Positions 8,890-12,732 of a stretch of DNA of 64,000 bases are shown in pieces. Position 1 is the stretch's first letter. Each line of letters opens with the position of its first letter. The notes under the pieces are model-generated. The model was not told the origin of the DNA and did not search any database. It saw only the letters and a program-made list of their open reading frames with translations. Made by a program: the position numbers and the translations under genes. The DNA is taken from assembly GCA_027492205.1 (NCBI GenBank), contig JAOZFN010000017.1:1-64000 (forward strand), given 5' to 3'. This stretch comes from Thermoproteota archaeon (lineage in GTDB: Archaea; Korarchaeota; Korarchaeia; Korarchaeales; Korarchaeaceae).

Positions 8890-10584
8890 ATGTCGAGAAG
8901 GGCCGCGGCGCTTGTGCTGCTGGTTGCGGCCGCCGCCCCCTCCCTGTCGGTGGCCGCGGAGGACCTATCCTATCGGATCGCCCGGGAGTGGATCGTCCTG
9001 CAGATCGAGCGGGACGGGACGATCCTGCTCTCCTACAACCTGACCGTGGCCGTGGACTCTGGAGCGATCAGGCGCTTCGTCAGGGTCGGCATGCCCGTCG
9101 GGAGCTTCGAGGTGCTGGAGGCCCGGGAGCTGGAGACGGGGTTGGACGTGGGCTACGACGAGATCAGGGAGGGAGACTACTACGCCGTGGAGCTCCACCC
9201 CAGCGGCCCAATAGAGGCCGGGCAGTCGAGGACCTTCACGTTCACCGCGCTGGTCGAGGACTTCGTCAATCCCGACGAGACCAACCCGGGTAACGTGGGG
9301 GTGCAGTTCACCCCCTCCTGGTTTGACGACGCGCCGGTGGAGGACCTCAGGCTCCTGGTGGTGCTTCCCGAGGGCGTGGATCCGTCGGAGGTCAGGAACA
9401 ACCCGGACTACGACAACCTGATGAACCTAGACGGGAGGGTCGCCCTCTACTGGGAGAGACGCAACCTGTACCCGGGGGAGCGGTTCGAGGTCGGGGTCAG
9501 CTTCCCATCGCAGTACGTGGGGCATTACGTGGAGGCGCCGGGCTCCAGGGGGATACTCTACAGGATCGGCCAGATCCTGGGCGTCCTGGTCATGCTGGCC
9601 CCGTTCGCGCTCGTCGCGGCGTACGTCCTCTACACGCGGACCAAGAAGTATCTGGGAGAGTATGAGCCCCCGTGGATTGGGATCGAGGCCTTGGGCCCGC
9701 AGAAGCAGCTGAACCCACCCGAGGCCGCCTACCTGATGCTCCTGGAGTCTGGCGGGAGGGAGTTCTCCAGGGTGATAACGGTGGCGCTGGTAGAGGGGCT
9801 CAAGTTGGGCGTCCTTGAGCTTGAGAGCCTGAGACCTCTGAGGCTGAGGGTGAGGGACGACGGGGGCCCTCTGAAGTACTACCTGAGGAGGCTCGTCCGC
9901 TGCGTCCAGGACGACGGGTCCCTGGACGGGGACTGCCTCGCGAGGCTGATCAAGGCCGTACACAGGGCCACCTACCGCAAGCTGTCCGGCTTCTCTAGGA
10001 AGGAGACTGTGGACTTCTACCGCAAGAAGATCGCGGAGGGTTGGAGGGAGCTCCAATCTGCACCTCCCGAGAAGAAGAGGGAGGTCCTGGACGAGTGGAT
10101 CGAGTGGCTCATGATCGACGAGAACTTCTTCGAGAGGCTCAGGGAGGCCATGAGGGCCCCCGAACCGGCTCAGGTCGTTCTGCCGAGCGACTGGTGGATG
10201 TACAGGATCTGGCGGTGGACGTGGCCCGGCTGGGACGGGCACGTCGTCGTGACAAGGCCGGCCCCCGGCGCTCCCCGAGTCGAGCCCGTGATGGAGCCCA
10301 GGACCGTCACCAGGATTGAGCGGAGGGCAGAGGGGCCGGTCGTCTCCCTGGAGAAGGCCGCCGACGAGGTGGCCAGGGGGGTCGAGTCAGTCTTCGACTC
10401 CGTGGCGGACAGCGCGGAGGGACTGGCGGACAGGGTGGCCAGGCTCATAGCGCCGGAGCGGACCAGGCCGAGGAGCAGGACCAGATCCGCCGTGAGTTCC
10501 TGCGTCTGCGCCTGCGTGTCCTGTGCGTGCGCCTGCGCCTGCGTCTCCTGCGCCTGCGCATGCGCCGGAGGGGGTGCTGGCTGA
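8890..10584 (+). CDS. DUF2207-like membrane protein with alternating-cysteine C-terminal tail
   Basis: A signal peptide (residues 1-22) precedes an extracytoplasmic beta domain of DUF2207 type (about 25-215; YRIAREWIVLQIERDGTILLSY). One membrane helix follows (about 228-249, LGVLVMLAPFALVAAYVLY), then a long cytoplasmic region with PPEAAYLMLLESGGREFSRVI, as in DUF2207 proteins. The last 27 residues hold ten cysteines at 538, 540, 542, 545, 547, 549, 551, 554, 556 and 558, in a CxC/CxxC ladder separated by A, V or VS, ending in GGGAG. By topology the tail is cytoplasmic. The stop overlaps the start of the radical SAM gene (TGATG), so the two are translationally coupled; the tail is the likely substrate. 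Confidence 0.85.
   Translation: MSRRAAALVLLVAAAAPSLSVAAEDLSYRIAREWIVLQIERDGTILLSYNLTVAVDSGAIRRFVRVGMPVGSFEVLEARELETGLDVGYDEIREGDYYAVELHPSGPIEAGQSRTFTFTALVEDFVNPDETNPGNVGVQFTPSWFDDAPVEDLRLLVVLPEGVDPSEVRNNPDYDNLMNLDGRVALYWERRNLYPGERFEVGVSFPSQYVGHYVEAPGSRGILYRIGQILGVLVMLAPFALVAAYVLYTRTKKYLGEYEPPWIGIEALGPQKQLNPPEAAYLMLLESGGREFSRVITVALVEGLKLGVLELESLRPLRLRVRDDGGPLKYYLRRLVRCVQDDGSLDGDCLARLIKAVHRATYRKLSGFSRKETVDFYRKKIAEGWRELQSAPPEKKREVLDEWIEWLMIDENFFERLREAMRAPEPAQVVLPSDWWMYRIWRWTWPGWDGHVVVTRPAPGAPRVEPVMEPRTVTRIERRAEGPVVSLEKAADEVARGVESVFDSVADSAEGLADRVARLIAPERTRPRSRTRSAVSSCVCACVSCACACACVSCACACAGGGAG
10501..10563 (+). repeat. Low-complexity tgcgcc-type tract encoding the Cys-rich tail
   Basis: The tract is built of tgc/tgt alternating with gcc, gcg, gca or gtc, and encodes CVCACVSCACACAC and its continuation. 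The pattern CACACAC/VS/CACACA suggests expansion by slippage of 6- and 9-nt units, kept in frame. Synonymous codons vary, so it is not a fresh expansion. Confidence 0.85.
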
Positions 10585-11921
10585 TGAGAGTCGGGGTAGG
10601 GAGAGATCCCAAGAGGAGCGCGCGCATGCTCGGCTTCGTGTACAGGGGCCAGAAGGTCCACCTGAGGGTCGATCCGTCCGGCGTCGGCGTGCTGGTGGTG
10701 GCCGCCAGGAGGTCCGCATACCTCAACAGGTCAGGGACGCTGTTCGCCCAGTCATTCCTGAGCGGGGAGCCGCCGGAGACCGCGGTGGGTAGGGCCGTGA
10801 GGGCATTCAAGGGACTCACGAGGGAGAGGGCAGAGAGGGACTACAGAGACTTCGTCAGGAGGCTCAAGGCCTTCCTAGACGCCGAGGAGGTCTGCCCCGT
10901 CACCGACCTCGGGTTCGCGAGGGTCGACCCCCTCTCGGTCAGGACCTCGGCGCCCTTCAGGATGGACCTCGCCCTCACCTACAGGTGCAACAACAGGTGC
11001 GTGCACTGCTACAGCGGGTCTCCCGAGCCAAAGCCCGAGATGAGCACAGAAGAGTGGAAGGAAGTCCTGCGGAGGCTGGAGAACCTTGGTGTACCCAACG
11101 TGGTCTTCACCGGGGGAGAGCCAACCCTGAGGGACGACCTGGTGGAGCTGGTGGCGGAGGCCCAGCGGCTGGGCCTGGTCGCCGGGCTGGTGACCAACGG
11201 CAGGAGGCTGGCGGACAGGTCCTTCGCTGAGGCCCTAGTGAGAGCCGGGCTGGACTACGTCCAGGTCACGCTTGAGTCCCACAGGCCGGAGGTCCACGAA
11301 AGGATAACTCGGGCCCCTGGGAGCTGGAGCGAGACGGTAGAGGGTATCAGGAACATCGCTGACCTCGGGATATACGTGGACGTCAACGCCACCCTCAGCA
11401 GGCTGAACGTGGGCGACGTCGTCGGGCTCGTCGAGCTGGCCCACGAACTCGGGGCCGACGCAGTTTCCGCGAACCGCCTCATATACAGCGGTCGGGGCCT
11501 TGAGGTCAGGGAGTGGTTCGAGCCCTCGCCGGGGGAGACGCTGGTTGCCCTGGAGGAGATGGCGGACGCCGCGGCCGAGAGGGATCTGGAGTTCAGGTGG
11601 TACGGCGTCACTAGGTACTGCGAGCTGAACCCGCTGGAGCATCAGCTCGGGGTGAAGTTCTGCTCGGCCTGCTCGATAACCATGGCCGTCGAGCCCGACG
11701 GTACCGTGATACCCTGCCAGAGCTACTACGAGCCCCTCGGCCACATCCTCAGGGACGACTGGGGCTCCATATGGGATCACTCGCTCTGCGAGGGGATAAG
11801 GTCGAGGAGCTTCGCTGGACCCGCGTGCAGGTCCTGCCCGTTCTTCAGCGCGTGCGGGGGAGGCTGCCCCCTGGAGGCCAGGGTCAGGCCCTACCCCGAG
11901 TCTCCGCCGGAGGTAGCCTGA
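10584..11921 (+). CDS. Radical SAM/SPASM peptide maturase with N-terminal PqqD-like domain
   Basis: Residues 1-100 look like a PqqD/RRE precursor-binding domain (YLNRSGTLFAQSFLSGEPPE, then a C-terminal helix). The radical SAM core starts with C135-x3-C139-x2-C142 (TYRCNNRCVHCY) and has GGEP at 177-180 for S-adenosylmethionine binding. The C-terminal SPASM domain carries C363, C378 after a CX9GX4C pattern, and C415-x2-C418-x5-C424-x3-C428, enough ligands for two auxiliary 4Fe-4S clusters. Such enzymes make thioether, C-C or other crosslinks in ribosomal peptides. ATG 10584 overlaps the stop of the upstream gene by one base; the longer frame from 10527 is the shadow of the Cys tail. Substrate assignment is inference from coupling and the RRE domain. 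Confidence 0.9.
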   Translation: MRVGVGRDPKRSARMLGFVYRGQKVHLRVDPSGVGVLVVAARRSAYLNRSGTLFAQSFLSGEPPETAVGRAVRAFKGLTRERAERDYRDFVRRLKAFLDAEEVCPVTDLGFARVDPLSVRTSAPFRMDLALTYRCNNRCVHCYSGSPEPKPEMSTEEWKEVLRRLENLGVPNVVFTGGEPTLRDDLVELVAEAQRLGLVAGLVTNGRRLADRSFAEALVRAGLDYVQVTLESHRPEVHERITRAPGSWSETVEGIRNIADLGIYVDVNATLSRLNVGDVVGLVELAHELGADAVSANRLIYSGRGLEVREWFEPSPGETLVALEEMADAAAERDLEFRWYGVTRYCELNPLEHQLGVKFCSACSITMAVEPDGTVIPCQSYYEPLGHILRDDWGSIWDHSLCEGIRSRSFAGPACRSCPFFSACGGGCPLEARVRPYPESPPEVA

Positions 11922-11995: not shown

Positions 11996-12405
11996 TCAGG
12001 GTGTGAACTCGGCCACGTGCCTCACCACTCCCAGGCTCGACGCCTTTCTGATGAGCCTCTCGTCGGCCGTGTACAGGACGGTCTCGTTTATCAGGGCGAG
12101 CGCCACGTAAGAGGCGCCGTATATTGTCAGACCCTTTCTCATGGCGATCTCTACGGTCCTCTCCGCATATCTCCCCGCGAGGTCATGCAGGGTGAACTGA
12201 TAGCCCTAGATGACCGAGGAGACCTCCCTCAGCTCATCCTCCCAAAGCGCCCGGAGTACTTCAGGGCGTTGAGGACCTCCATTGGCAGGAGATACGGGGC
12301 GAGGAGGTCTACTAGGCCGTCGACGTAGGCGTCCCTGAGCCTGAGGGGCTCTCCCGTGTACTCCTCCCTAACGAACCACTTCACCACCACGGAGGCGTCT
12401 ACCAC
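11996..12405 (-). pseudogene. vapC: Broken VapC (PIN-domain) toxin gene
   Basis: From GTG 12405 the frame encodes a PIN start (VDASVVVKWF) and PMEVLNALKYSGRFG, then stops at 12229-12231. The rest of the PIN domain continues in another frame down to TGA 11996-11998 (MRKGLTIYGASYVALAL, then TADERLIRKASSLGVV). One missing G in a GGG run near 12240 would rejoin them. Even so, TAG at 12206-12208 interrupts the second part, and the third catalytic acid (normally YDASY) is Gly in IYGASY. Three lesions make true decay more likely than sequencing error. GTG overlaps the VapB stop, the usual vapBC arrangement. Confidence 0.8.
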
Positions 12406-12665
12406 CGCCTCGCCTCTCTCCAGCGCCTTATCTCCTCCACCCCGCTCCAAACGGGCACCTCCCTGCGGAGCGCGTCGGTACGAATGGCGGCCGCCCGCAT
12501 GGCGGACCTGTCCTTCCGGCGCATCATCGCCTCCTCCCGCCTGACGACCTCTTCTATGGCCCTCCTCACCACGGCGCTCCAGTTGACGTGCCTCAACCTG
12601 TCCATCCTCTCCTTGAGCCTTCTATCAACCCTGAAGCTGATTACGACGCTCAATTCCCTCGCCAC
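12399..12665 (-). CDS. vapB: VapB-like ribbon-helix-helix antitoxin
   Basis: The N-terminal segment ELSVVISFRVDRRLKERMDRL followed by NWSAVVRRAIEEVVRREE is a ribbon-helix-helix DNA-binding motif; the C-terminal half (VWSGVEEIRRWREARRW) would be the toxin-wrapping peptide. I prefer GTG 12665 as start, since TGTAAACAATT (12688-12697 complement) lies about 26 nt upstream; ATG 12686 is the longer option but sits only 2 nt from that element. The gene is intact although its toxin partner is broken, so it is an orphan antitoxin or in early decay. It probably represses its own promoter. Confidence 0.75.
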   Translation of the reverse strand: MARELSVVISFRVDRRLKERMDRLRHVNWSAVVRRAIEEVVRREEAMMRRKDRSAMRAAAIRTDALRREVPVWSGVEEIRRWREARRW

Positions 12666-12732
12666 ATTGTATACACCTCTCGTCATAATTGTTTACAGGT
12701 ACGTGGCGCTCTGGGGCCAACGGGATGGGTAT

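Follow-up and report, generated by a model that had tools for sequence, protein, structure and literature searches.

A cysteine-repeat tail on an archaeal membrane protein and its paired radical SAM-SPASM enzyme

Why should an archaeal membrane protein end in ten closely spaced cysteines, and what does the radical SAM enzyme encoded immediately behind it do? This question arises from the window, here the whole 64,000-nucleotide stretch of Korarchaeaceae contig JAOZFN010000017.1 that was analyzed. One of its genes encodes a 564-residue membrane protein ending SSCVCACVSCACACACVSCACACAGGGAG, with cysteines at positions 538, 540, 542, 545, 547, 549, 551, 554, 556 and 558, followed directly by AGGGAG and the stop. 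Rereading the translated open reading frame (ORF) returned all ten cysteines where a preliminary description of the locus had placed them. The start of the enzyme gene within the stop of the tail gene, also described there, is seen in the junction TGATG at 10582-10586 (stop TGA at 10582-10584, enzyme ATG at 10584-10586). Radical SAM-SPASM maturases are known mostly from small peptides. Judged from the sequences compared below, the association of tail and enzyme points to a previously undescribed modification of a protein tail.

Selection on the tail and its pairing with the enzyme

Orthologues of the membrane protein (n = 21) were gathered by protein search, with the tail not used as a criterion. 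All share an identical 16-residue tail stretch, CACACVSCACACAGGG, encoded by 21 different DNA sequences, and pairwise comparison of the tail codons revealed differences at 58% of third positions and 1.6% of first and second positions. In a broader alignment of 36 proteins, most of them about 20-50% identical to the window protein, mean conservation was 97% for residues 544-562 versus 29-47% for regions before residue 536. The last 20 residues contained 16 of the 28 invariant columns, a number that is partly ascertained since most members had been chosen by the pattern SCACACAGGG. Statements on tail conservation rest on the orthologue-based set because the loci from the genome-wide pattern search described next were selected by that same pattern. 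The tail is kept more strictly than other parts of the membrane protein and, by its codon usage and identity among orthologues, is under selection.

Searching 84,980 species genomes with a back-translated exact tail pattern yielded 85 stretches. Those located away from a C terminus, in Roseomonas relatives, Burkholderiales, Comamonas, Holophagaceae and Eubacteriales, were set aside; all remaining matches are C-terminal tails that end in CACACAGGG and one to three further residues. According to record labels, the tail-bearing metagenome-assembled genomes (MAGs) comprise Thermoproteota, Crenarchaeota, Bathyarchaeota, Hermodarchaeota and Thermococci as well as Methanomicrobia, Methanofastidiosia, Methanomethylicia and Chloroflexi/Anaerolineaceae. 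The 89 tail genes gathered form a single BLAST-linked cluster.

Among 341 archaeal genomes, 31 encoded the enzyme family at 358 bits or more, the next unrelated match scoring 216 bits, and pattern searches detected tails of the CA type in 24 and of a second, CHSA type in six. Tail and enzyme occurred together in 29 genomes, the tail alone in one, the enzyme alone in two and neither in 309 (Fisher p = 1.5e-38, an optimistic value because related genomes are treated as independent). In each of the two enzyme-only genomes, G006 and G022, the contig stops within the tail gene. Both genes lie together on 78 fragments, and in 73 of these the enzyme gene follows the tail gene in the same orientation. 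Four Anaerolineaceae (Chloroflexi) loci lack an adjacent enzyme, with one 74-77% orthologue present elsewhere in each genome. Enzyme loss in Chloroflexi is, therefore, ruled out; tail and enzyme genes can be unlinked and the pairing still holds. The preliminary description had named two patterns that would speak against its proposal. Tailed proteins without the enzyme turned out to be rare (one of 30 genomes, besides the four Chloroflexi loci with an orthologue elsewhere), and no enzyme beside an intact untailed protein was found in the loci and genomes surveyed.

Two tail codes and two enzyme clades

Tails of the second type, (CHSA)n, are matched by an enzyme clade of their own. Within the window's family, such a tail was seen in G002 (genus g2), where a homologous membrane protein (E = 6.5e-12) ends in CHSA repeats. 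The g2 enzyme is 36% identical to the window enzyme and separated from the tail gene by one coiled-coil-like gene. Once G002 and G100 had revealed CHSA tails, such tails were predicted for four genomes of a distant archaeal family that had been found via the enzyme alone (G191, G209, G226 and G277) and were then confirmed by reading or by pattern. In an unrooted enzyme tree with 24 rows, a single branch with 100/100 support splits CHSA from CA enzymes. Because G002 and G006, from a genus of the window's family, group by tail type with the distant CHSA family and not with their own, the enzyme, as far as this tree resolves it, follows the tail and not the species. Short repeats with cysteine as the fixed residue suggest repeated cysteine chemistry.

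These data make the tail a well-supported candidate for the enzyme's substrate. Of the earlier proposal that the enzyme matures the tail while attached to its protein, the part concerning a dedicated substrate is upheld by co-occurrence and by the match of clade and tail, while attached maturation and a polythioether or metal-binding patch keep the rank of proposals. What had not been expected was that the pair would extend to several archaeal phyla and to Chloroflexi, that a second tail code would exist and that the genes may lie apart.

Architecture of the two proteins and known relatives

The enzyme matches Pfam Radical_SAM with 105.6 bits (cut-off 29.5) and SPASM with 31.7 bits (cut-off 21.5). 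Both motifs read previously, a CxxxCxxC core and a CX2CX5CX3C SPASM element, are present, in the form of C135xxxC139xxC142 and C415X2C418X5C424X3C428, together with C360X12G373X4C378. The cysteines of all three are invariant in 28 relatives, as is C346, a linker cysteine with a counterpart in the linker ligand of SuiB (PMC6231123). The seventh and last cysteine of the SPASM motif is absent from the window enzyme; 18 of the 28 relatives have a cysteine C-terminal to the motif. For the N-terminal PqqD-like domain claimed earlier, support comes from the modeled strand and helix layout of a RiPP recognition element (RRE; RiPP, ribosomally synthesized and post-translationally modified peptide), with beta-strands and three helices, and from 12 of 28 relatives matching PqqD at E < 0.001, while the window enzyme itself, at 19.3 bits, stays under the Pfam cut-off of 23.4. 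Sequence and model thus agree on a predicted N-terminal RRE as in RRE-radical SAM-SPASM maturases, and family matches assign the radical SAM and SPASM domains. With these, the enzyme possesses the components found in sactipeptide and ranthipeptide maturases: RRE, radical cluster and SPASM cysteines including the linker C346. Its model (mean predicted local distance difference test score (pLDDT) 86.6, predicted template-modeling score 0.87) is closest among solved structures to SkfB, followed by SuiB, with PqqE and the SCIFF thioether maturase (5WHY) lower. For SkfB (PDB 6EFN), 393 columns were aligned, with E values of 4.9e-33 by sequence profile and 4.3e-20 by fold.

Comparison with characterized systems revealed partial overlaps. 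SkfB combines an RRE, a radical SAM barrel and an auxiliary-cluster domain as in the window enzyme, but its auxiliary domain is of the Twitch type (PMC6231123) instead of SPASM, and its substrate SkfA is a short peptide precursor instead of a 564-residue membrane protein. The SCIFF and ranthipeptide systems CteA/CteB and PapA/PapB likewise place a cysteine-rich C-terminal substrate beside an RRE-radical SAM-SPASM maturase (PMC8172795); their substrates, however, are short peptides with spaced cysteines, and the PapB model gave 94.8 bits on a CHSA-type enzyme, far under its cut-off of 340. The window locus shares with sactipeptides and ranthipeptides a cysteine-rich core paired with a maturase gene, but the core sits on a 564-residue protein that comprises a signal sequence, an outside domain and a transmembrane helix instead of a short precursor composed of leader and core. 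QhpD, the main precedent found for thioethers at the protein level, introduces radical SAM thioethers that are kept within a protein subunit, QhpC, the gamma subunit of quinohemoprotein amine dehydrogenase (PMC8172795). In contrast to the tail, QhpC belongs to a bacterial enzyme complex and features Cys-Asp/Glu links, no CxC repeats and no membrane-protein tail. The His-Xaa-Ser system (HxsA/B/C/D) pairs radical SAM proteins with a repeat-bearing region superficially similar to CHSA, but the repeat differs, and the scanned enzymes scored about 56-110 bits against an NCBIfam HxsC cut-off of 267.9. TvgA/TvgB, which generates poly-cyclopropylglycine, resembles the window pair in that one radical SAM enzyme acts on tandem short repeats (PMC9062424), yet these are cysteine-free TVGG repeats in a free peptide.

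Homologues of the membrane protein were identified by protein search in 25 genomes of the phylum (E ≤ 2e-8, own genome and fragments counted). In family scans, no Pfam or NCBIfam model claimed the window protein. The earlier label 'DUF2207-like' is right, on profile evidence, as remote homology and not as membership by Pfam rules. At the Pfam cut-off for DUF2207 (PF09972), the window protein is unmatched and matches occur in three of 36 relatives (the best at E = 8e-4), whereas a profile of the 36 tailed proteins aligned with seven canonical DUF2207 proteins over 313 columns at 98.9% probability (E = 1.3e-17). Canonical DUF2207 proteins (PF09972/PF20990) share with the window protein a glycine-rich C terminus (Gly/Asp-rich in L269) but lack its cysteines, and no such enzyme occurs within their fetched flanks of about 1.5 kb. 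Since the canonical tails are glycine-rich, the cysteine tail may be an elaboration of this end.

The AlphaFold2 model of the membrane protein has a mean pLDDT of 77.8. For the outside domain, Foldseek returned the beta domains of OST1/ribophorin I and M1 aminopeptidases as nearest folds, with low TM-scores, so that these matches indicate the fold class only. From the positive-inside rule and the basic TRTKK after the transmembrane helix, we infer a cytoplasmic C terminus. The tail was considered as a second membrane span, being hydrophobic by Kyte-Doolittle, and rejected, as the CHSA version bears histidine and serine. One tail protein, L240 6829-8475 (G334), is apparently split by a frameshift across two ORFs and has the tail CACACACACACAGGGR.

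Table 1 Features of the membrane protein and enzyme genes in the window
Feature	Position	Strand	Basis
Gene for Cys-tailed membrane protein of 564 aa, remote DUF2207 relative	8890..10584	+	ORF; homologues; profile-profile match
Signal-peptide-like N terminus, residues 1-23	8890..8958	+	Hydropathy; model helix 2-14
Outside beta-sandwich domain, residues 24-222	8959..9555	+	AlphaFold2 pLDDT mostly about 88-98; Foldseek
Transmembrane helix, residues 223-249, then TRTKK	9556..9636	+	Hydropathy peak 2.57; model helix 222-252
Cytoplasmic helical domain and Pro-rich stretch, residues 250-481	9637..10332	+	Model
Pre-tail helices, residues 484-520, possible recognition stretch	10339..10449	+	Model helices 487-508, 512-520
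Cys tail CVCACVSCACACACVSCACACAGGGAG, residues 538-564	10501..10581	+	Sequence; conservation; invariant in relatives
RRE-radical SAM-SPASM enzyme gene, 445 aa	10584..11921	+	Pfam Radical_SAM, SPASM; nearest solved structure SkfB
PqqD-like RRE domain, residues 14-99	10623..10880	+	Model strands 14-47, helices 49-99; PqqD match in relatives
CxxxCxxC motif, radical SAM 4Fe-4S cluster, residues 135-142	10986..11009	+	Invariant in 28 relatives
Auxiliary-cluster region: C346, C360, C378, C415, C418, C424, C428	11619..11867	+	Invariant in 28 relatives; PF13186

Proposed maturation in place, alternatives and surroundings

We propose, with a probability of roughly 0.58, that the enzyme is dedicated to maturing the cysteine tail of the membrane protein encoded upstream, that it modifies the tail in situ on the cytoplasmic side, most likely by forming cysteine thioethers, and that the product is retained. 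The membrane protein would be inserted with its tail facing the cytoplasm, and the PqqD-like domain would bind the stretch preceding the tail. The enzyme would then work repeatedly along the CA units, or along CHSA units in the sister clade, most likely joining cysteine sulfur to a carbon of a nearby residue. The modified tail would stay on the protein, an outcome favored because no recurrent peptidase or exporter was recognized nearby, and the finished tail might be a stiffened or a metal- or redox-active patch at the inner membrane face. Several observations weigh against this proposal. In G025 (91% complete, 210 contigs) and in a Hermodarchaeota MAG (L189, G351), the tail is present and the enzyme was not found; at the Chloroflexi locus L166, a dead enzyme paralogue and not an active enzyme adjoins the tail gene; and AlphaFold2 modeled the tail poorly (pLDDT about 30-40).

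Other chemistry on the retained tail is an unlikely alternative and would include epimerization, C-C links, cyclopropane formation or oxidation of cysteine or alanine, with thiols left free for metal. TvgB makes cyclopropylglycine on TVGG repeats (PMC9062424); repeats together with this enzyme class, therefore, need not mean thioethers, and histidine and serine of the CHSA tails could take part. Nevertheless, cysteine is the most strictly kept residue, and the sactisynthase SkfB is the closest match in both sequence and structure. A precursor role for the whole membrane protein, with cleavage of the modified tail to yield a free peptide, is considered quite unlikely. Although a cysteine-rich C-terminal core beside an RRE-radical SAM-SPASM maturase is the usual RiPP layout, the tail, in contrast to rapidly evolving peptide products, is near-identical across phyla and borne by a conserved membrane protein. 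Moreover, no peptidase or exporter was recognized among the commonest neighbor clusters, judged from example sequences and mostly without a family scan; these clusters instead show a zinc-ribbon protein and a methyltransferase (Chloroflexi, two archaea).

The tail might also function unmodified in metal-thiolate or redox chemistry, with the enzyme acting elsewhere and linked for another reason. Runs of CxC typically mark thiolate metal binders, and the rare genomes with a tail in which the enzyme was not found fit such a function. It is, however, very unlikely given that the enzyme clade tracks tail type across distant groups and that co-occurrence persists for unlinked gene pairs. GC-rich TGCGCC-like repeats and the false pattern matches in Roseomonas and others brought chance low-complexity DNA, or retention of the tail on account of an overlapping frame, into consideration. 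This explanation, including a microsatellite origin, is refuted by the 21 distinct DNA sequences for the same 16 residues, with third positions near saturation, and true tails always end one to three residues before the stop.

Among neighboring genes, a small zinc-ribbon membrane protein is encoded directly upstream of the tail gene at 33 loci, mostly with a short overlap (for example, L106 2376-2747), and in most cases ends in EEPKW or EEPTW. As a universal third part it was rejected for the window's family, with no match in the window's genome (G000) and weak ones in some relatives. A class I methyltransferase gene follows in Chloroflexi and is located nearby in the archaea G243 and G334. 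Chloroflexi also contain intact enzyme paralogues that kept the RRE region and lost the CxxxCxxC and SPASM cysteines (L144 6108-7445 and L166 5439-6596); the L166 tail has only three cysteines, and a better enzyme copy is present elsewhere in its genome. Adjoining the CHSA-type enzyme gene of G006 is a gene, open at the contig end (L076 3854-4582, minus strand), for a cysteine-rich CPTGxx repeat protein with a C-terminal transmembrane helix. In family f42 (L235-L237), CHSA tail genes are preceded by genes for small conserved proteins (about 133-193 and 108 residues), the two from L235 having no Pfam match. In G025, the tail gene is convergent with a PspA/IM30 gene (L077 1891-2631 and 3060-4526), with a small membrane or helix-turn-helix-like gene between them, a possible membrane-stress context. 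Within the window, two small overlapping genes on the minus strand (12229-12686) resemble an antitoxin/PIN-type toxin pair.

While the enzyme class is known, the substrate is unusual and very widely kept. Curated families name neither the membrane protein nor the enzyme, and the pair was not described in the literature searched on DUF2207 with radical SAM, archaeal RiPP or radical SAM systems and membrane-protein substrates, whose partial coverage makes this weak evidence. We see an even chance that these loci represent a novel system present in multiple archaeal phyla, among them the window's lineage, Bathyarchaeota and Asgard Hermodarchaeota, as well as in Chloroflexi. In such a system, radical SAM enzymes of two clades would write cross-linked cysteine arrays, in CA and CHSA codes, on the cytoplasmic tails of membrane proteins, with the product retained as a structural, metal or redox device. 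Over a very broad span of archaea, and in some bacteria, one radical SAM-SPASM family is locked to a membrane-protein tail. Modification of this tail in place, if it occurs, would constitute a new class of membrane-protein modification. The two natural sets of tail and enzyme offer a ready test of substrate choice and cross-link placement by such enzymes, and the pairing also provides a clue to the function of DUF2207 proteins, which are widespread and poorly understood.

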